Shown: positions 3,358 to 31,597 of the stretch, piece after piece
Position numbering within the stretch: position 1 is the stretch's first letter
Layout of the letters: every line of letters begins with the position of its first letter
NCBI GenBank assembly: GCA_902786245.1
Contig: CADABS010000027.1
Coordinates: 1 to 38,049, forward strand
Direction of reading: 5' to 3'
Length of the DNA: 38,049 nucleotides
DNA from: an uncultured Erysipelotrichaceae bacterium
GTDB lineage: Bacteria > Bacillota_I > Bacilli_A > Erysipelotrichales > Erysipelotrichaceae
Made by a program: the position numbers and the translations under genes
Notes under the pieces: generated by a model
What the model was told of the DNA's origin: nothing
Databases searched by the model: none
The model's input: the letters and a program-made list of their open reading frames with translations, nothing else

Positions 3358-4455
3358 TCACAGCCAGGCCGCAATTCTCTCTGCGGCTTTTCTCTCCCAC
3401 ATATCGCGGTGCTGGATCAGCAGCACACCGAGTTCTTCCGCCTTGCGTACCAGCTCATCATGATCCGCATCGTTGTCATTGCACAGTACCGGCAGAGCTC
3501 TGTCGCCGCCGAACCGGACGGCATTTGCCTTGACTTCGTAGATTGCCTGCTGATCGTATTTTCCGGCTTTGCAGGAAATGCTGATCAGTCTGCCGTTCTT
3601 CGTTGCCAGAACATCCAGTTCGCTGTTGGGATCATTTCTCTCAAAGGAACCGCCGTTCCAGTCAATATTCACCCGCAGATCCAGGTCATCAAACATTCCG
3701 GAATCCAGAAGCTGATAATAGGTATCATATTCGAATGCCACACCGCCGTCCGTGAGCAGGATCCTGTAATCGGGAGATGCGAATGTGAACGTTATATACT
3801 TATCGAATTTCAGAAACTCCGAAAATACGCTCTGAATTCCCGTAAAGATCGATCTGTATTCATTGAATACCGGCATATCGACAGTCCATGTATCCGTATC
3901 CGGATATTTTCTGTTGTAGGAACCCATCGTCTTACAGAAATTCGACCATTTGCGGTTATTCTCCCGCTTGACGCGGATAATATCTTCGACTGCCTTTCTG
4001 CCGGCTTCGTCAAAGACTGCCTCGGGAAGATTTCTCACTTCGCCGCCGTAAAGACGGATCAGTTCTTTCACGGTCAGATGCGGCCATCTGATTTCCCGGG
4101 TAATTTTATCTTCGCCCTGCAGGATCAGGACCTTTCCGTCAATCAGATCCGAGAAATACATCGGACAGTCATATGTATCCGCATAGCGGATGATCATTGC
4201 CAGCAGCAGTTCCGAACCGCCTTCGATATCGAAGGCCAGGTCCTCCGGATCCAGCATATCCAGGATTTCTTCGATACCGTATATATCTGTTGAGATATAC
4301 TGTACTTCCCCTGCATATTTCTCCACGATCGGATTGTGAATCAGATGTTCCTGACGTTCTTCATAGAGGAAGATCGTTTTCTCCGGTCTTTCCGCGTATC
4401 CTGTCAGCAGATTCAGAATCTGCTGTGAATCATAGATTTCCACCAGTGTTTTCAT
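3358..4455 (-). CDS. Card1/DUF1887-like CARF-domain nuclease
   Basis: The 365-residue protein matches the DUF1887/Card1-Can2 family in length and layout. The N-terminus MKTLVEIYDSQQILNLL, followed by E-K-T-I-F-L-Y-E-E, looks like the Rossmann-type CARF sensor. The C-terminal half has a PD-(D/E)xK-like core, E-L-D-V (279-282) followed by I-S-C-K (293-296). Family members such as Treponema Card1 are cyclic tetra-adenylate-activated nucleases of type III CRISPR systems; standalone relatives are widespread and less studied. No cas gene or repeat array is visible in this window. The start at 4455 has AGGTGA upstream and fits the family N-terminus; an ATG at 4473 overlaps the preceding stop (TAATG) and would add six residues. 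Confidence 0.75.
   Translation of the reverse strand: MKTLVEIYDSQQILNLLTGYAERPEKTIFLYEERQEHLIHNPIVEKYAGEVQYISTDIYGIEEILDMLDPEDLAFDIEGGSELLLAMIIRYADTYDCPMYFSDLIDGKVLILQGEDKITREIRWPHLTVKELIRLYGGEVRNLPEAVFDEAGRKAVEDIIRVKRENNRKWSNFCKTMGSYNRKYPDTDTWTVDMPVFNEYRSIFTGIQSVFSEFLKFDKYITFTFASPDYRILLTDGGVAFEYDTYYQLLDSGMFDDLDLRVNIDWNGGSFERNDPNSELDVLATKNGRLISISCKAGKYDQQAIYEVKANAVRFGGDRALPVLCNDNDADHDELVRKAEELGVLLIQHRDMWERKAAERIAAWL
4091..4104. promoter_or_regulatory. Noc-binding-site-like sequence (13/14)
   Basis: ATTTCCCGGGTAAT differs at one position from the Bacillus subtilis Noc consensus ATTTCCCGGGAAAT. It lies inside the Card1-like coding region, which is normal for such sites. A Noc homologue is encoded at 20.1-20.9 kb. 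Confidence 0.4.
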
Positions 4456-13094: not shown

Positions 13095-13630
13095 TCTTCC
13101 AGTATCCTTTTCAGTTCTTCTTTGGTGATCTCAATGCGGTTCAGTCTCTGCCGCATCGTCTTTGCGTTTCCGTATCCGATATGCAGGACAATGCCGAGCT
13201 TCCTGCGTTTCTCTTCGCTGTCCGGTCTGCCCAGCAGCCCGAGTTCGCTCATATCGGCAGCCGTCAGACTTCCCCGTGCGGTTTCCTGCCATGTCACAAG
13301 ATGGGCCAGGGCTTCCTGCAGGTCTTCTTTTCCGGCATGCTCAATACCGACTTTTTTCTCTGTCTTTGCGGCATCTTTATCAATAAATGCGTTTCTGCAT
13401 CCGGGCACTGCTGCATTGACCGCGCTGCGGATTCTGTTTCCCGGGGAATCCGGGTCCGTAAACACGATCACCCCGGCGGTGTCTCTTGCCTGCCGGATCC
13501 TGTCCAGAACTTCTTTTCCCAGATGGGTTCCGTTCGTCTCGATCGTTTCACAGTCAAAATACATCTTCAGCTTCTGTGTATCATGCTTTCCTTCGACGAC
13601 GATCACTTCCCGGATCTTCTGTCTATCCAT
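13091..13630 (-). CDS. rnmV: Ribonuclease M5 (5S rRNA maturation)
   Basis: The 179-residue Toprim-domain nuclease trims both ends of 5S rRNA precursors in low-GC Firmicutes, with ribosomal protein L18 as cofactor. The Toprim signature is clear: V-V-E-G-K-H-D at residues 11-17, then F-T-D-P-D-S-P-G-N-R, followed by G-I-E-H-A. The C-terminal half is the M5-specific extension. It starts eight bases inside the end of tatD and ends in an ATGA overlap with rsmA. Confidence 0.95.
   Translation of the reverse strand: MDRQKIREVIVVEGKHDTQKLKMYFDCETIETNGTHLGKEVLDRIRQARDTAGVIVFTDPDSPGNRIRSAVNAAVPGCRNAFIDKDAAKTEKKVGIEHAGKEDLQEALAHLVTWQETARGSLTAADMSELGLLGRPDSEEKRRKLGIVLHIGYGNAKTMRQRLNRIEITKEELKRILEE
13436..13449. 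promoter_or_regulatory. Noc-binding-site-like sequence (12/14)
   Basis: GTTTCCCGGGGAAT differs from ATTTCCCGGGAAAT at two positions. It lies within rnmV. Confidence 0.3.
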
Positions 13631-18400: not shown

Positions 18401-19303
18401 TCAGAGTCCTTCATCCAGACAGCCGAGAATCTCAAGAATACGATTCAGATCCTCTGTATCCGAATAAGCAATGGAAATGCTTTTCTTGCCGACATTGACT
18501 TCCGTTGCCAGTTTGCTCTGCATATGCGATTCAAGGTCTCTGATCCAGGGATCCTTTTCCGCTGTACGGTGCTGCTTCTTCGGCTTGGCTTCCGTACCGT
18601 TGAGTTCATGCACGTAGGATTCCACCTCGCGGACAGACATCTTTGATTTCATGACATGCATCGCCGCATCATAGATCTGGTCTTCATCTTTCAGACTCAG
18701 CAGCGGCCGGACATGGCTCATCGTCAGTTTTTTATCGACAACCAGTTTCTGTACTTCCTCCGGAAGCTTCAGAAGACGCATGATATTGGCACAGTATTCT
18801 CTGGACTTGCCGACCCGTTCTGCCAGTTTTTCCTGGGTATAGCCGAGCTTCCGGACCAGCGAATCATATGCGGCTGCTTCTTCGATCGGATTCAGATCTT
18901 CTCTCTGTACGTTTTCGAGGATGGAGATTTCCATCATCTCTTCATCCGTAAAATCGACCTGAATTGCAGGAACCGTATCAAGGCCGGCAATCTTTGCGGC
19001 TCTCAGACGTCTTTCACCGGTGATCAGATCATAGCCCTTGACGCTCTTGCGCACGAGCAGCGGTGTGAATATGCCATGTGTACGGATGGAATCAGCCAGT
19101 TCATTCAGAGCTGCTTCATCGAATTCTTTTCTCGGCTGATACGGATTGGGCCGGATTTCATCAATATTGATGATGACTTCACGGCGCCCCGGGATTTCAG
19201 AATTGTTATTCTGAATATCATCCAGGAACTGTTCGACATTTGTACCGAAGATCGCATCCAGTCCCCGTCCGCCAAGGCCGGGTCTGTTCTTTCTGTCTGC
19301 CAT
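18401..19303 (-). CDS. parB: Chromosome-partitioning protein ParB (Spo0J)
   Basis: The 300-residue CTP-dependent DNA clamp loads at parS and spreads. The N-terminal domain has RPNPYQPRK, then L-I-T-G-E-R-R-L-R-A-A (CTP-binding arginine patch) and ENVQREDLNPIEEA; the HTH (EKLAERVGKSREYCANIMRLL) recognises parS; a C-terminal dimerisation domain follows a charged linker. It starts at the parA stop codon (TGATG). Two perfect parS sites lie 10.7 and 12.1 kb away in this same window. ParB also recruits SMC to the origin region. Confidence 0.96.
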   Translation of the reverse strand: MADRKNRPGLGGRGLDAIFGTNVEQFLDDIQNNNSEIPGRREVIINIDEIRPNPYQPRKEFDEAALNELADSIRTHGIFTPLLVRKSVKGYDLITGERRLRAAKIAGLDTVPAIQVDFTDEEMMEISILENVQREDLNPIEEAAAYDSLVRKLGYTQEKLAERVGKSREYCANIMRLLKLPEEVQKLVVDKKLTMSHVRPLLSLKDEDQIYDAAMHVMKSKMSVREVESYVHELNGTEAKPKKQHRTAEKDPWIRDLESHMQSKLATEVNVGKKSISIAYSDTEDLNRILEILGCLDEGL

Positions 19304-20082
19304 CAGTGCTTACCCCTTTCGTTCTGCGTAATGACCTCCTTCACGAGCTGCGCATATGCCTTTGCGCCTTCGCTCCGGGTATCATATTCGAAGATGCTCT
19401 CTTCCCGGGAAGGTGCCTCGGAAAGACGGACATTTCTCGGTATATAGCATTTATAGACTTTTTCTTTGAAGTATTTTCTGACTTCCTGCTGGACTTCCAC
19501 AGACAGTTTGGTACGTACATCGAACATCGTAAGCAGTACACCTTCGATCGACAGTTTCGGATTCCAAAGTCTCTGGACAAGGCGGATCGTACTCAGCAGC
19601 TGGGTAAGTCCTTCCAGTGCAAAGTATTCGCACTGGACCGGAATCATGACTGTGTCTGTCGCCGTCAGGGCATTCGTATTCAGCAGACCGAGTGCCGGCG
19701 GACAGTCAATGATGATGTAATCATATTTGTCTCTGACCATATCCAGTTTTGTTTTCAGGAGTTTTTCCCGGCCGAGTTCATAGTTCGCCATATCCACATC
19801 CGCACCGGAGAGATTGATCGTGGAAGGCAGTACATCCAGCGGCGGCATCTGCAGATGGACAACGCAGTCTTCGACGGTATCCTCTCCGAGCAGGACATCG
19901 TATACCGTCTTTGTGTATCCTACTCTGTTTGTTCCGATGCCATGCGTCGCATTTCCCTGCGGATCAAAATCCACCAGGAGCACTTTTCTGCCGACATAGG
20001 CAAGACCGGCTGCGAGATTCATTGCGGTTGTTGTTTTTCCGACGCCGCCTTTCTGATTGGCAATCGCTATGATTTTTCCCAT
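19303..20082 (-). CDS. parA: Chromosome-partitioning ATPase ParA (Soj)
   Basis: The 259-residue deviant-Walker ATPase has KGGVGKTTTAMNLA at residues 11-24 with the signature Lys, D-F-D-P-Q-G-N-A-T as Walker A', and I-I-I-D-C-P-P as Walker B. Together with ParB it segregates origins and, in Bacillus, regulates DnaA. It follows noc by 10 bases and overlaps parB at the stop/start (TGATG). Confidence 0.96.
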   Translation of the reverse strand: MGKIIAIANQKGGVGKTTTAMNLAAGLAYVGRKVLLVDFDPQGNATHGIGTNRVGYTKTVYDVLLGEDTVEDCVVHLQMPPLDVLPSTINLSGADVDMANYELGREKLLKTKLDMVRDKYDYIIIDCPPALGLLNTNALTATDTVMIPVQCEYFALEGLTQLLSTIRLVQRLWNPKLSIEGVLLTMFDVRTKLSVEVQQEVRKYFKEKVYKCYIPRNVRLSEAPSREESIFEYDTRSEGAKAYAQLVKEVITQNERGKH

Positions 20083-20092
20083 AATACAATCC

Positions 20093-20905
20093 TCAGTTCT
20101 TCGGTATCCGCACGATCATCTTTACAGAGTCTTCCGTTTCTTCCGTATCGACTCTGACATGGATGCCCATGCGCTCAATCATCTGTACGCACTGATTGAC
20201 AGAATTCACAGCAATCTGCACATTTCTCGTAAAACCTTTTGTTTTCTGCCTGCGCTTTCTTTTCTTTTCACCTGTGATCTTCTCAATATATGCTTCACTG
20301 TCCCGGACGTTCATCCCTTCCGAAACGATTTTTCTGAATACTTTCTTCTGCTGTTTTTCCGGTACGGAAAGCAGAGCCCGGGCATGCCGCTCCGAAATGA
20401 CGCCGCTGATGACACCCTGCTGCACTTCATCCGGCAGATTCAGAAGCCGGATCTTGTTTGCGACGGAAGACTGCGACTTTCCGATTTTCGCCGCGACCTG
20501 TTCCTGGGTCAGACCTGCCTGACGCATAATCTGTACATAGCTCTTGGCTTCTTCCACCGCACTGAGATTTTCTCTCTGTACATTTTCGACCAGGGCCATC
20601 TGTGCCGCTTCTTCTTCCGAAGGAGACATAACATAGCACATGATCTTCTCAAAGCCTGCTTTGACACAGGCTCTGTATCTGCGCTCACCGGCAATGATTT
20701 CATAATGTCCGTCTTTCTCCCTGACGGTAATCGGCTGGATCAGACCATTTTCTATAATGGAAGCTGTCAGTTCTTCCATCGCTTCTTCATCGAAATGAAC
20801 ACGGGGCTGATACTGGGAAGGAACGATTTTCTCCGTCGGAACCTCTATGACCCTGCCCGTACTCTGACGATCAAACAGTTCGAATATGTTTTTTGATTTA
20901 ACCAT
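20093..20905 (-). CDS. noc: Nucleoid occlusion protein Noc (ParB paralogue)
   Basis: The 270-residue ParB-like protein lies in the order rsmG-noc-parA-parB, exactly as in Bacillus. It has S-Q-Y-Q-P-R-V-H, the CTP-binding I-A-G-E-R-R-Y-R-A-C, ENVQRENLSAVEEA, and the HTH GKSQSSVANKIRLL followed by ISERHARALL, which is characteristic of Noc rather than ParB. The first residues (M-V-K-S-K-N-I-F-E-L-F) could form the amphipathic membrane-binding helix known for Noc. It would bind NBS sites and block division over the nucleoid; three NBS-like sequences are listed here. Its start is 11 bases behind rsmG. Confidence 0.92.
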   Translation of the reverse strand: MVKSKNIFELFDRQSTGRVIEVPTEKIVPSQYQPRVHFDEEAMEELTASIIENGLIQPITVREKDGHYEIIAGERRYRACVKAGFEKIMCYVMSPSEEEAAQMALVENVQRENLSAVEEAKSYVQIMRQAGLTQEQVAAKIGKSQSSVANKIRLLNLPDEVQQGVISGVISERHARALLSVPEKQQKKVFRKIVSEGMNVRDSEAYIEKITGEKKRKRRQKTKGFTRNVQIAVNSVNQCVQMIERMGIHVRVDTEETEDSVKMIVRIPKN

Positions 20906-20916
20906 CGTCTCTCTCC

Positions 20917-21615
20917 TTATAAAGGCTTCTTCTTGATCTGTCCGTAATTCCGCGGATATTTCCCGGGTGATAATTTCGTTTTCCGGTAGAAAAGATTGAC
21001 CCTGGCATCTGCGCCGGGCAATGCAATATCCTGTATGTTTTCAAGAACAGCACCAAGTTCTTTACAGGCATGTTCCGCCTCTTCCGCTTCCTGTCTGCCC
21101 TTAGAACCTTTCATTGCAATAAACAGACCGTCTTTTCTGACCAGCGGCAGACAGAGTTCGCTCAGAACCCGGAGGTTGGCGACTGCCCTGGCTGTCACAA
21201 AATCAAAGCTTTCCCTGTGCTCCGCAGCGTATTCTTCAGCCCGGCAGTTTTCAACACAGACCTGCTTCAGTTCCAGTGTCCGGATCACTTCTTCCAGAAA
21301 GCGGCACCGTTTGCCGGTCGGCTCAATCAGTGTCATATGTACATCCGGCACCATGATCTTCCAGACAAGGCCGGGAAATCCCGCACCGGTACCGATATCC
21401 GCCGCTTTACCGTTCAGACGGACTTCCCGGAGCGGAAGCAGTGAGTCATAAAAATGCTTTTCCCAGATTTCCTGCGGCTCCGTGATCGCAGTCAGGTTCA
21501 TATTCCGGTTCCACTCGATTAAAAGACCGGCATATACATCCAGTTTCTGCCTCTGCAGATCATCTGCGTCAGGAAAGATTTCCTGTATTTGTTTCCAGAC
21601 TTCCAGTTTTTCCAT
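20917..21615 (-). CDS. rsmG: 16S rRNA m7G527 methyltransferase RsmG (GidB)
   Basis: The 232-residue SAM enzyme methylates G527 in the 530 loop of 16S rRNA; its loss gives low-level streptomycin resistance. N-R-N-M-N-L-T-A-I, then D-I-G-T-G-A-G-F-P-G-L-V-W (SAM site) and V-T-A-R-A-V-A-N-L are typical. The start codon is preceded only by a weak AAAG Shine-Dalgarno and a short leader. It opens the rsmG-noc-parA-parB unit, whose upstream region carries four DnaA boxes, and is separated from mnmG by the ThyX-like gene, unlike the usual direct mnmG-rsmG neighbourhood. Confidence 0.96.
   Translation of the reverse strand: MEKLEVWKQIQEIFPDADDLQRQKLDVYAGLLIEWNRNMNLTAITEPQEIWEKHFYDSLLPLREVRLNGKAADIGTGAGFPGLVWKIMVPDVHMTLIEPTGKRCRFLEEVIRTLELKQVCVENCRAEEYAAEHRESFDFVTARAVANLRVLSELCLPLVRKDGLFIAMKGSKGRQEAEEAEHACKELGAVLENIQDIALPGADARVNLFYRKTKLSPGKYPRNYGQIKKKPL
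20958..20971. promoter_or_regulatory. Noc-binding-site-like sequence (12/14)
   Basis: ATTTCCCGGGTGAT differs from ATTTCCCGGGAAAT at two positions. It lies in the 3' end of rsmG, next to noc. Confidence 0.3.
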
Positions 21616-21633: not shown

Positions 21634-21639
21634 ATTTTA
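21634..21639 (-). promoter_or_regulatory. Possible -10 of the rsmG-noc-parAB promoter
   Basis: TAAAAT lies 18 bases upstream of the rsmG start on the minus strand; the -35 at 17 bases (TTTTCG) is poor. An activator or the nearby DnaA sites could matter. No other candidate in the 120-base gap is better. Confidence 0.3.
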
Positions 21640-21670
21640 TCATTGTTTCACGCCCGCGAAAACATGATTA

Positions 21671-21734
21671 TGTGGAAAAATGAGTTTTCCACATTTTTGC
21701 AAAAATCATGCTGTGGATAAAATAATTATCCACA
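21671..21734. promoter_or_regulatory. DnaA-box cluster: two inverted pairs
   Basis: Four DnaA boxes lie within 64 bases: TGTGGAAAA (21671-21679), TTTTCCACA (21685-21693), TGTGGATAA (21712-21720) and TTATCCACA (21726-21734). The last two match the TTATCCACA consensus perfectly, the first two differ at one base. Each pair is inverted around a 5-base spacer. The cluster fills the gap between the ThyX-like gene and rsmG, in an A/T-rich context, directly upstream of the rsmG-noc-parAB unit. Confidence 0.85.
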
Positions 21735-21735
21735 A

Positions 21736-22317
21736 TCAGTTCTGTTCGATGAGATATTCGTTATAGGGCAGCGTCTCGATCCAGGCACAGAATGCTTTCC
21801 ATTCCGGAAGACGGTTTCCTTTTCTTGCCCTGTAGATCATCCGCAGCTGCCGGTAATTCGTTGTCATCCGTGCAGTCAGCCGGAACCCGGCCGGGTTGGA
21901 ATAGATGATTTCAAGATATTTATTCGACGCCACATCATTCAGTGTCGTTACGTCTTTTCCTTCTTCCTGGAGCTGACGGATTTCTTCCTGGAGCGTGTTA
22001 TACTCTCTGACCTTCTCCTTCATGATCCCGACAATGCGCGGATCGGTGTACTGAATATAGGCATGATCCAGATCAAACTTTGTGATTCTGTTCATGGCTG
22101 ACTGTGTACTGACAAAATCCAGGAAATGAAAACGTTCCGCTTCCACCCATGCCTTATTGGAAAATGTCAGATCAAGCTGCACAATGATTCCGTTCAGAAA
22201 ACTGTCATGTCCGTTTCCCGGCTTTTCCACCGCTTCAGCAACCGGATATGCAGATCCCTGCACGGTTTCTTCCAGTCCGTAAATGTTTACATTAGAAATA
22301 ACTTCTTCCCAGTTCAT
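21736..22317 (-). CDS. Conserved protein, possibly a remote ThyX relative
   Basis: The product (193 residues) has the segments A-E-R-F-H-F-L-D-F-V-S-T-Q-S-A-M-N-R near residue 60 and TARMTTNYRQLRMIYRARKG followed by E-W-K-A-F-C near the C-terminus. The spacing and the Q-S...R and N-x-R-x-L...R patterns recall flavin-dependent thymidylate synthase (ThyX), but the diagnostic R-H-R-x7-S motif is not there, so thymidylate synthesis cannot be claimed. Similar proteins occur in phages, as far as I recall. The start at 22317 is one base after the mnmG stop and is preceded by GAGGAAGG. A DnaA box ends two bases before its stop-codon end. Confidence 0.6.
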   Translation of the reverse strand: MNWEEVISNVNIYGLEETVQGSAYPVAEAVEKPGNGHDSFLNGIIVQLDLTFSNKAWVEAERFHFLDFVSTQSAMNRITKFDLDHAYIQYTDPRIVGIMKEKVREYNTLQEEIRQLQEEGKDVTTLNDVASNKYLEIIYSNPAGFRLTARMTTNYRQLRMIYRARKGNRLPEWKAFCAWIETLPYNEYLIEQN

Positions 22318-22318
22318 C

Positions 22319-24193
22319 TCATGACCTTCCTCTCTTCTGCCGGATAAAGGCCGCAAGCACCGCAATATCCGCAGGATTGACTCCGGAAATTCTGGATGCC
22401 TGTCCGACTGTTGCCGGCTTATACTGATTCAGTTTCTGTCTTCCTTCCAGGGACAGATTCTCTACTTCATCATAGGGAAACTCCGTTCCGAGTTTCACTT
22501 CTTCCATTGCCTTGAGTTTTCCGGCTTCTCTTTTGGCTTTCTGGATATATCCTTCATATTTCAGATCGATATCGCATTGTTCTGCCAGGGCCGGATCGAT
22601 ATCCTCGCCGCTCAGCCGCATAAGGTCTGCTGTTCTGATATCCGGACGGCGGATCAGTTCATCGCCGCGCACGCCTTTATGCATTCCGGTTTCATATCCT
22701 GCCTTCTGCAGATAATCGCTGACGGCAGGATCATCCAGCAGGAATACTTTTTCCTGTATCCGGGTCTTCAGTTCCTGCAGATCCCGGGCATTCCGGAGAT
22801 ACTCTTCATAGCGCGCATCCGAAATCAGACCGACATCATGGCCTGTGCCGATCAGCCGTTCTTCCGCATTGTCATGGCGCAGCAGAAGGCGGTATTCTGC
22901 CCGGCTTGTCAGAAGCCGGTATGGTTCAAGGGTTCCCTTAGTGGTCAGATCATCGACGAGAACACCGATATACGCTTCATCCCGGCCGAAGACGACCGGT
23001 TCCTTTCCATCGAGTTTCCGGACCGCATTGATTCCGGCCATGATTCCCTGACCAGCTGCTTCTTCATACCCGGAAGTTCCGTTGACCTGACCGGCTGTAA
23101 ACAGATTCTCAATGATCTTGGACTCAAAAGACGGTTTCATCTGGATCGGATCGATTGCATCGTATTCGATTGCATATGCGTATTTTTTGATAATACAGTG
23201 CTCGAATCCCGGCAGTGTATGGGTCATTTCCTCCTGTACATCCCTTGGCAGAGAAGTGGAGAAACCCTGGACGTAGGTCGTATCCATGGAACGGGATTCC
23301 GGCTCAAGAAACAGCAGATGCCGGGGCTTGTCCTTGAAGCGGACCAGTTTATCCTCGATGGACGGACAGTAGCGCGGTCCGACTCCTTTGACAACACCGG
23401 AATACATACTCGAACGGTGCAGATTCCGGTGAATGATTTCGTGTGTCTGTTCGGTTGTATAGGTCATATAGCAGTCAACCTGCTGATCAAACGGAAGAAT
23501 CGACTTTGTTGTTTTTGAAAAGCAGATAAACGCATCGGTTCCCGGTTCTCTCTGTGTCTTTGAAAAGTCGATCGAAGAAGTCAGTACCCGGGGCGGTGTC
23601 CCGGTTTTCAGCCGGAATGTCTTCAGACCCAGACGGCGCAGAGACTCTGAGAGATCGCCCGTCGTCTCTTCCAGATCCGGTCCGCCCGGACGTACTTCAT
23701 CCGAAATCATATTGACGCCGGCCATATATGTACCGGTTGTCAGGATCACCGCATCCGCATGGATCACGGTTCCGTCTTTCAGCGTTACGCCGGTGACTCT
23801 GCTGTTTTCCGCATTGACTGCCGTTGTCATTGCCTCAAGCACAGTCAGATTTTCCTGATGGAGACAGACATCCTGCATCATTTTCGAATACAGGATCTTA
23901 TCCGACTGTACACGCAGAGCCCGGACACCCGGGCCTTTGGCGCTGTTCAGCATTTTAAACTGCAGAGCTGTCGCGTCTGCAGTGATTGGCATCTGTCCGC
24001 CCAATGCGTCAATTTCCCGGACAACGATTCCTTTGGCAGGACCGCCGACCGATGGATTGCAGGGCATTTTTCCGATATTGGCAACGCTGAGGGTCAGCAG
24101 CAGCGTCTTCTTTTTCAGCCGGGCTGCCGCAAGAGCCGCTTCAATGCCGGCATGTCCGCCGCCGATGACGATAATATCAAATTTCTCCGGCAT
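22319..24193 (-). CDS. mnmG: tRNA uridine 5-carboxymethylaminomethyl modification enzyme MnmG (GidA)
   Basis: The 624-residue FAD protein partners MnmE in modifying U34 of tRNA. I-V-I-G-G-G-H-A-G-I-E-A-A at residues 9-21 binds FAD; PCNPSVGGPAKGIVVREIDALGG and the G-Q-V-N-G-T-S-G-Y-E-E-A-A-G-Q-G segment are family signatures (quoted in part). The C-terminal helical domain that binds MnmE is complete. It overlaps the EVE-like gene by 17 bases and runs straight into the ThyX-like gene. The start ATG begins M-P-E-K-F-D, inside the preceding reading frame. Confidence 0.97.
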   Translation of the reverse strand: MPEKFDIIVIGGGHAGIEAALAAARLKKKTLLLTLSVANIGKMPCNPSVGGPAKGIVVREIDALGGQMPITADATALQFKMLNSAKGPGVRALRVQSDKILYSKMMQDVCLHQENLTVLEAMTTAVNAENSRVTGVTLKDGTVIHADAVILTTGTYMAGVNMISDEVRPGGPDLEETTGDLSESLRRLGLKTFRLKTGTPPRVLTSSIDFSKTQREPGTDAFICFSKTTKSILPFDQQVDCYMTYTTEQTHEIIHRNLHRSSMYSGVVKGVGPRYCPSIEDKLVRFKDKPRHLLFLEPESRSMDTTYVQGFSTSLPRDVQEEMTHTLPGFEHCIIKKYAYAIEYDAIDPIQMKPSFESKIIENLFTAGQVNGTSGYEEAAGQGIMAGINAVRKLDGKEPVVFGRDEAYIGVLVDDLTTKGTLEPYRLLTSRAEYRLLLRHDNAEERLIGTGHDVGLISDARYEEYLRNARDLQELKTRIQEKVFLLDDPAVSDYLQKAGYETGMHKGVRGDELIRRPDIRTADLMRLSGEDIDPALAEQCDIDLKYEGYIQKAKREAGKLKAMEEVKLGTEFPYDEVENLSLEGRQKLNQYKPATVGQASRISGVNPADIAVLAAFIRQKRGRS

Positions 24194-25082
24194 TCAGCAC
24201 CTCCGTTACCGACAGCAGCGATTCCGGAACACCTGTTCCGAGAATTTCGAATTTTACATTCTGCGGCATGCCTGCTTTGCGGATGAGCACTCTGTACATC
24301 AGCATCCTCCCGCAGATTTCTCTGATGCGGGCATCCCGGTTATTTGCCTGGGACGCAAAAGGCAGCGCAATCGTCACTGTATTGTCTTTGATCATGAGAC
24401 TGTCTGTCCGGCTGCCTCTGATCATTTCCCATTCTTCTTTTTCCACCTGCAGTGCAGCAAGCTTATGCATCATGCCGCGCTCCTTTTCGCTGCCGGCTTC
24501 CCTGCCGATCTGCTTATGGATGACCGCAATCTGATGCCGGACTGCATCCTTGGCAAAGATGATTTCCGGTGCGGTTTCCGTTCCGATTGTCCAGAGATCA
24601 ATGCCGTGCGACTGGGCTTTTTTCAGAATATTGACCGTAATCGCCGGATCGCTGCGGTCAAGATAGCAGTAAGATTCAAGATTGTTCGGTATATCCAGTC
24701 CGATTTCATCCGGATAAATCGGCGAGAGAAAGAAGACGACGTCTGTCAGATACAGACAGCTCATCTGTTTCGGCACCGGACCTTTCGCCGCCTTCTCGAT
24801 TGCTTCCTTCAGAAGCTGACGGGAATCATATCCGGTCGCCTGACCGTACTGATCCCACATCTGATACAGAGACAGTCTTTTCAGTGAATTGAAATGTGCA
24901 TATCCGATCAGACCCTTTTTCCGTCCCCTGTGCGGGCGCGCGAAAAAGAACAGAAGATCGCCTTTTCTGAAATCAGAAAATTTCTTCCGGCTGGAAAGCC
25001 GCCAGAACAGAATCGAACGGTTTCTGCACAGGCGGTGGTATTCCAGCATTTTTTCATCTGTCACATATGCAATTGAACTCAT
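24177..25082 (-). CDS. EVE/PUA-like protein with unknown C-terminal domain
   Basis: The 301-residue protein is not one I can name. Its first 165 residues have the pattern of an EVE/PUA-like fold: F-R-K-G-D-L-L-F-F-F-A-R-P, then G-L-I-G-Y-A-H-F, and later Y-L-T-D-V-V-F-F-L. EVE domains bind modified bases in DNA or RNA. The remaining 130 residues are helical and charged, with no motif I recognise. It starts just after the fhs stop with no obvious Shine-Dalgarno and ends 17 bases inside mnmG, so its translation is probably coupled to both. A role in nucleic-acid modification would fit the neighbourhood, but this is inference. Confidence 0.6.
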   Translation of the reverse strand: MSSIAYVTDEKMLEYHRLCRNRSILFWRLSSRKKFSDFRKGDLLFFFARPHRGRKKGLIGYAHFNSLKRLSLYQMWDQYGQATGYDSRQLLKEAIEKAAKGPVPKQMSCLYLTDVVFFLSPIYPDEIGLDIPNNLESYCYLDRSDPAITVNILKKAQSHGIDLWTIGTETAPEIIFAKDAVRHQIAVIHKQIGREAGSEKERGMMHKLAALQVEKEEWEMIRGSRTDSLMIKDNTVTIALPFASQANNRDARIREICGRMLMYRVLIRKAGMPQNVKFEILGTGVPESLLSVTEVLNAGEI

Positions 25083-30006: not shown

Positions 30007-30022
30007 TGTTTCACGTGAAACA
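30007..30022. promoter_or_regulatory. parS site 1
   Basis: TGTTTCACGTGAAACA is a perfect 16-bp palindrome identical to the ParB/Spo0J parS consensus. It lies between the serS terminator and the SRP RNA promoter. A parB gene is in this window. Confidence 0.95.
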
Positions 30023-31371: not shown

Positions 31372-31597
31372 TAAAAACATCCTCCGTAAAGGGACGATGT
31401 ATAATCGCGGTGCCACCCTTTTTGTCAAATTGTTTCACGTGAAACAATCAGGCCACTTCATTGTCGGATAACGGCCGATACCGGAAAGGATTGGTTTCAC
31501 TCCCGGGATGGATTCAATACCATATACAGACAGCTCGCATCATCCGCTGTCTTTCTGCAGATGCATATAATACTTACTATTCCCGATCAACGCTGTA
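31372..31597 (-). ncRNA. Serine T-box leader of serS
   Basis: The minus strand carries the T-box core AAGGGTGGCACCGCG pairing with CGTCCCTTT, and the competing terminator ACATCGTCC...GGAGGATGT with a T-rich tail (31400-31371). In stem I the specifier segment reads TGAA-TCC-A, with the Ser codon TCC at 31512-31510; the distal loop has G-G-A-T-G. Context in the metG leader is alike (TGAAC before the codon). A perfect parS site lies between stem I and the antiterminator. Confidence 0.9.
31431..31446. promoter_or_regulatory. parS site 2, inside the serS T-box leader
   Basis: TGTTTCACGTGAAACA, the perfect 16-bp consensus, 1.42 kb from the other copy. It is transcribed as part of the serS leader, where it would also form an RNA hairpin. 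Confidence 0.95.

Follow-up and report, generated by a model that had tools for sequence, protein, structure and literature searches.

A probable DnaA operator of fixed design at the rsmG-noc-parA-parB promoter of an Erysipelotrichaceae genus

The four DnaA boxes that precede rsmG in an uncultured Erysipelotrichaceae bacterium are, judging from their sequence, very probably two copies of a DnaA operator at the promoter of an rsmG-noc-parA-parB operon. As expected for a DnaA-regulated promoter, the boxes match those of the host's own oriC, and they hold a fixed place relative to the promoter that is conserved in relatives. The window, the whole 38,049-nucleotide stretch that was analyzed, carries the genes of the locus on its minus strand in the order mnmG, an ORF, the box dyads, rsmG, a noc-like gene, parA and parB. 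The mnmG gene (gidA; 22319..24193, minus strand; TIGR00136, 816.9 bits) is followed by an ORF of about 194 aa (21736..22317, minus strand) that belongs to no Pfam or NCBIfam family and whose homologues occupy the same place, between mnmG and rsmG, in most of the genus. The first gene of the operon, rsmG (gidB; 20917..21615, minus strand; TIGR00138, 177 bits), precedes a ParB-family gene (20093..20905, minus strand) with ParB_N and HTH_ParB domains, for which 'noc-like' is the careful wording because its TIGR04285 score of 311.1 bits lies just below the curated cut-off of 315. The last two genes are parA (soj; 19303..20082, minus strand; AAA_31, 227.8 bits) and parB (spo0J; 18401..19303, minus strand; ParB_N and HTH_ParB). 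A 301-aa ORF at 24177-25082, also without a Pfam or NCBIfam family, lies between mnmG and a formate-tetrahydrofolate ligase gene and is conserved at 55% identity in G058, a relative assembled as a single contig.

The region upstream of rsmG holds two 23-bp dyads of the pattern TGTGGANAA-N5-TTNTCCACA, both with a spacer of 5 bp and both inside the 120-bp gap between the family-less ORF and rsmG. The promoter-proximal dyad, which reads TGTGGAAAA-ATGAG-TTTTCCACA on the plus strand (21671..21693), is made of two TTTTCCACA boxes at 21671-21679 (minus strand) and 21685-21693 (plus strand), and the distal dyad, TGTGGATAA-AATAA-TTATCCACA on the plus strand (21712..21734), of two TTATCCACA boxes at 21712-21720 (minus strand) and 21726-21734 (plus strand). 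The two dyads are 41 bp apart from start to start, and the distal one begins 1 bp past the stop codon of the upstream ORF. The original prediction of two pairs of 9-bp boxes with 5-base spacers is thus borne out at both positions, although the pairs, described there as head-to-head, are divergent when the arrow is taken as 5'-TTATCCACA-3'. Single near-match boxes are no rarity in the window (13 versus 8.35 expected); the cluster is rare, with four boxes in the 120-bp intergenic region compared to 0.054 per shuffle (maximum 2 of 500). No exact dyad occurred in 60 dinucleotide-shuffled windows (2.28 Mb), and the 2.75-Mb assembly contains just the two at rsmG. Allowing up to one mismatch adds a single dyad before dnaA and nothing else genome-wide, giving no sign of a wider dyad regulon in this genome at that threshold, and still looser matches in five genomes resemble chance.

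The identity of the arms is established by the organism's own origin. The dnaA gene of the same genome lies on another contig, C43, in the order jag-dnaA-dnaN, and there 456 bp encompassing the end of jag and the start of dnaA contain 13 boxes of the TTNTCMACA family where 0.15 would be expected. The 9-mers of the rsmG dyads are the same 9-mers as in this family, and with 13 such boxes in the host's oriC the dyad arms are DnaA boxes of this organism. In the encoded DnaA the box-binding domain is normal (PF08299, 98.5 bits), and the dyad at its gene reads TGTGGATAA-TTTTT-TTATCAACA. Dyad symmetry and a rigid 5-bp spacer also resemble the sites of dimeric regulators, and the dyad could in principle be the operator of some protein other than DnaA that co-controls dnaA and rsmG-noc-parAB. 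We consider this highly improbable, since both arms are DnaA boxes whose degeneracy is that of the oriC boxes in this genus, and the exact dyads found outside the genus, six in 395 Bacilli genomes, adjoin dnaA in five cases. In another genus of the family (L247, G103) an exact dyad before dnaA has a spacer of 6 rather than 5.

The position of the boxes relative to the replication origin can be estimated by synteny. The window and C43 show no terminal overlap, and so their adjacency is inferred from G058, in which the order is dnaA (about base 101-104), S4, recF, gyrB, gyrA, and further on mnmG, the ORF, rsmG (20.8 kb), noc, parA and parB. The right edge of the window is gyrA-gyrB-recF-S4, as implied by the original expectation of dnaA/dnaN on that side, and because these are the genes found in G058 the boxes would lie some 19 kb from dnaA. 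An origin of replication at mnmG-rsmG, secondary or ancestral, would account for four DnaA boxes in AT-rich sequence and for a gidA/gidB context like that in E. coli, and in Deinococcus DnaA-binding repeats upstream of parAB do act as origins of secondary replicons (PMC7671480). We nevertheless give this reading almost no credence. The GC skew is negative in all 2-kb slices of the window without a change of sign, and an intact oriC with its 13 boxes is present at jag-dnaA on C43. In G058 most sampled slices have a positive skew between 0 and 1.4 Mb and a negative one from 1.6 Mb onward, with two slices off the trend, which puts the origin near dnaA. The skew comparison proposed with the original prediction thus speaks against its suggestion that the boxes are part of an origin, there being no switch at the boxes and, in the complete relative, a switch near dnaA; the resemblance it drew to the gidA/gidB position of E. 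coli oriC does not explain the boxes either, the dyad being retained in relatives where rsmG follows another gene.

Conservation was examined in 60 genomes of the genus (Erysipelotrichaceae, Solobacterium/Lactimicrobium-like), the named relatives being Solobacterium sp. MAGs, Lactimicrobium massiliense and other Erysipelotrichaceae, with dyads placed by the positions of rsmG and dnaA and by tblastn on the loci. These genomes contain 46 exact dyads, 36 directly before rsmG, 10 directly before dnaA and 0 elsewhere, and a reversed-pattern control returned 0 in the same 60 genomes. With up to two mismatches a spacer-5 dyad is present upstream of rsmG in 46 of the 57 usable regions and upstream of dnaA in 48 of 50, while spacers other than 5 number at most four at rsmG and the mismatches there are bimodally distributed, at 0-2 or 6-7. 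The conserved box spacing that the original prediction proposed to look for in related genomes is therefore found, in the form of a dyad with a fixed 5-bp spacer. Usually dnaA has a single copy, and rsmG has one or two, at most three. In the cultured relative Lactimicrobium massiliense (locus L052) the dyad before rsmG is exact. No dyad is found at rsmG in 11 of the 57 genomes; in several of these rsmG starts close behind the preceding gene, in at least three (G008, G040 and G033) a promoter-like -10 is retained, and such lineages still have the dnaA dyad where it is readable. Four identical spacer-6 dyads, TGTGGAAAACTTTGATTTTCCACA, occur in both orientations in G058 (C1, positions 386574, 1570629, 2496434 and 2558176) and may belong to a repeat or mobile element.

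The placement of the dyad relative to the promoter is constrained as well. An extended -10 (TGATAAAAT; 21634..21642, minus strand) is predicted for rsmG-noc-parA-parB from its sequence and its recurrence in relatives, with the -10 hexamer at 21634-21639, 31 bp from the proximal dyad. An extended -10 of the form TGNTANAAT recurs in relatives at a phased distance downstream of the nearest dyad at rsmG; the -10 assignments are pattern-based, and those of G011 and G038 were re-read by eye. Most dnaA promoters have 31-32 bp between the dyad end and the -10 hexamer; at rsmG the corresponding distance is 30-34 bp in 23 genomes, 41-43 in 6, 53-55 in 13 and 15-18 in 3. All but the three shortest, or 42 of 45 rsmG promoters, thus fall into phased classes about one helical turn apart, and the vector strength of the distances is maximal at a period of 10.5-10.75 bp. 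The rsmG tree requires at least 16 changes among the distance classes, and hand-grouping into 16 roughly independent cases gives p of about 0.002 at 10.5 bp, or about 1e-5 without the three short ones, values that are rough because the grouping is a matter of judgement. Since the dyad geometry at rsmG is that found before dnaA, the segregation genes and the start of replication are probably under one control.

The original prediction had raised both a regulatory cluster controlling the partition genes and DnaA titration. The conserved fixed spacing, the set distance to the operon's -10 and the sharing of the dyad with the dnaA promoter support the former. A titration site near oriC, of the datA type or like other DnaA-box clusters and without direct effect on the operon, would fit the two to six good boxes found at rsmG and their distance of about 18-43 kb from dnaA where both are on one contig. 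Such a site is nonetheless very unlikely to be the explanation, as it leaves the promoter-phased geometry unaccounted for; the fixed 5-bp dyad, the phasing to the -10 and the mostly one or two copies suit an operator more than a sink, and oriC by itself already has 13 boxes.

Inverted repeats in such a position could also act as RNA hairpins, either terminating the mnmG-ORF operon or serving as a leader attenuator, and indeed a terminator scan scores both stems as terminator-like on the minus strand, and the folding of the region is stronger than that of shuffled sequence (z -4.4). An intrinsic terminator or attenuator should keep its stem through compensatory changes. At position 3 of the box, however, there is no covariation between the arms (16 symmetric versus 15.2 expected), and in relatives the arms are often non-complementary at this position; they are identical in just 7 of 43 distinct rsmG dyads. 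Variation is nearly limited to positions that DnaA boxes tolerate, the outer TGTGG/CCACA being nearly invariant, and the dyad also occurs ahead of the -10 of dnaA. The invariant 5-bp spacer together with arms that vary independently at position 3 indicates a DNA site rather than an RNA stem. Moreover, the predicted start site at about 21627 leaves the dyads outside the rsmG transcript, and so they would not belong to its leader. The hairpin explanation accordingly has only a very small chance of being right.

Other sites related to segregation occur in and around the locus. Two perfect parS sites (TGTTTCACGTGAAACA) at 30007-30022 and 31431-31446 lie toward oriC, 8-10 kb away from the dyads, and three sequences resembling Noc sites (ATTTCCCGGGAAAT with 1-2 mismatches; 0.21 expected) are found at 4091-4104, 13436-13449 and 20958-20971. 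In the rsmG leaders of G001, G002, G039, G049 and G055, Noc-site-like palindromes (e.g., TTTTCCCGGGAAAA) stand between the DnaA dyad and the -10, where they may possibly reflect Noc self-regulation. As the main explanation Noc self-regulation was rejected, a Noc-type palindrome being present in just 5 of 58 rsmG leaders.

With DnaA as the preferred ligand, we suppose that the protein would occupy the rsmG dyads as it presumably does the matching dyad of its own promoter, and that once bound it would contact or block RNA polymerase. The output of noc, parA and parB would thereby follow the level of free, active DnaA. By analogy, repression is somewhat favored over activation: repression of dnaA-dnaN by DnaA is widespread among bacteria (PMC12112137), and the trmE-noc operon of B. 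subtilis is another reported target of such repression. The phasing and an apparently weak -35 leave room for activation, which we rate as somewhat the less likely of the two. If ParA and Noc in turn act on DnaA or on the start of replication, initiation and segregation would be joined in a feedback loop. Such a loop is plausible, since DnaA is subject to regulation by ParA/Soj in B. subtilis and the Noc protein of S. aureus holds initiation in check (PMC6399470, PMC5540599). The full proposal, a genus-specific DnaA regulon of two promoters in which a rigid same-face operator jointly controls dnaA and noc-parA-parB, with the loop closed by ParA and Noc, we regard as having about an even chance of being correct.

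Outside the genus the arrangement at rsmG is absent. The rsmG upstream regions of other genera and families yielded 1 box in 53 regions versus 59 boxes in 21 genus-like regions, and there is no enrichment of boxes before noc alone or parA alone. The noc operon of the Bacillaceae is mnmE-mnmG-rsmG-noc, with mnmE at its head. In B. subtilis, parAB (soj-spo0J) is regarded as a unit separate from the trmE-noc operon. Among the Bacillales examined, most Bacillaceae and Listeria loci carry boxes of the TTATCCACA type at 1.5-2.0 kb upstream of mnmG, which from typical gene length places them at the start of mnmE. The presence of boxes before mnmE in most Bacillaceae loci implies that DnaA control of the noc operon predates this genus, and the rsmG dyad would be a rewired, lineage-specific form of the known DnaA-noc link that now includes parAB. 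Searches of open-access papers turned up no description of such boxes in front of rsmG-noc-parAB. Control by DnaA seemingly was kept, or regained, as the noc-bearing operon was rebuilt, and its appearance before mnmE in Bacillaceae and before rsmG and parAB here suggests that selection has favored tying initiation to both segregation and nucleoid occlusion. With its helical ruler to the -10, the rigid dyad offers a clean system for studying the action of DnaA on RNA polymerase, and the bioinformatic signature is simple, a single 23-bp pattern leading to just two promoters per genome.

Known systems offer several parallels. In B. subtilis, DnaA binds upstream of trmE (mnmE), downstream of jag, in one of its strongest binding regions and appears to repress trmE-noc, in what is thought to be direct control (PMC4447404). 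There, as here, DnaA boxes head an rsmG/noc operon near oriC, but in B. subtilis they precede mnmE, whereas in this genus the operon begins at rsmG, includes parA-parB and carries a dyad with a rigid 5-bp spacer, in phase with the -10. The autoregulation of dnaA-dnaN, as in E. coli and B. subtilis (PMC12112137), is matched by the identical dyad design at the genus's own dnaA promoter; the rsmG dyads differ in serving another operon and in their one or two (up to three) copies. On chromosome II of Vibrio cholerae, RctB stimulates transcription of parAB2 (reviewed in PMC6399470), likewise linking a replication initiator to a par operon near its origin, although RctB is a different initiator that acts at other sites, on a secondary chromosome, and by stimulation. 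DnaA acts at parS centromere DNA in Caulobacter (reviewed in PMC6399470), which also ties DnaA boxes to chromosome segregation, while the dyads described here are at the par promoter with parS well removed. Finally, datA and other DnaA-box clusters share with the rsmG dyads a location near the origin and outside oriC, and differ from them in that the rsmG boxes are few and phased to a promoter.
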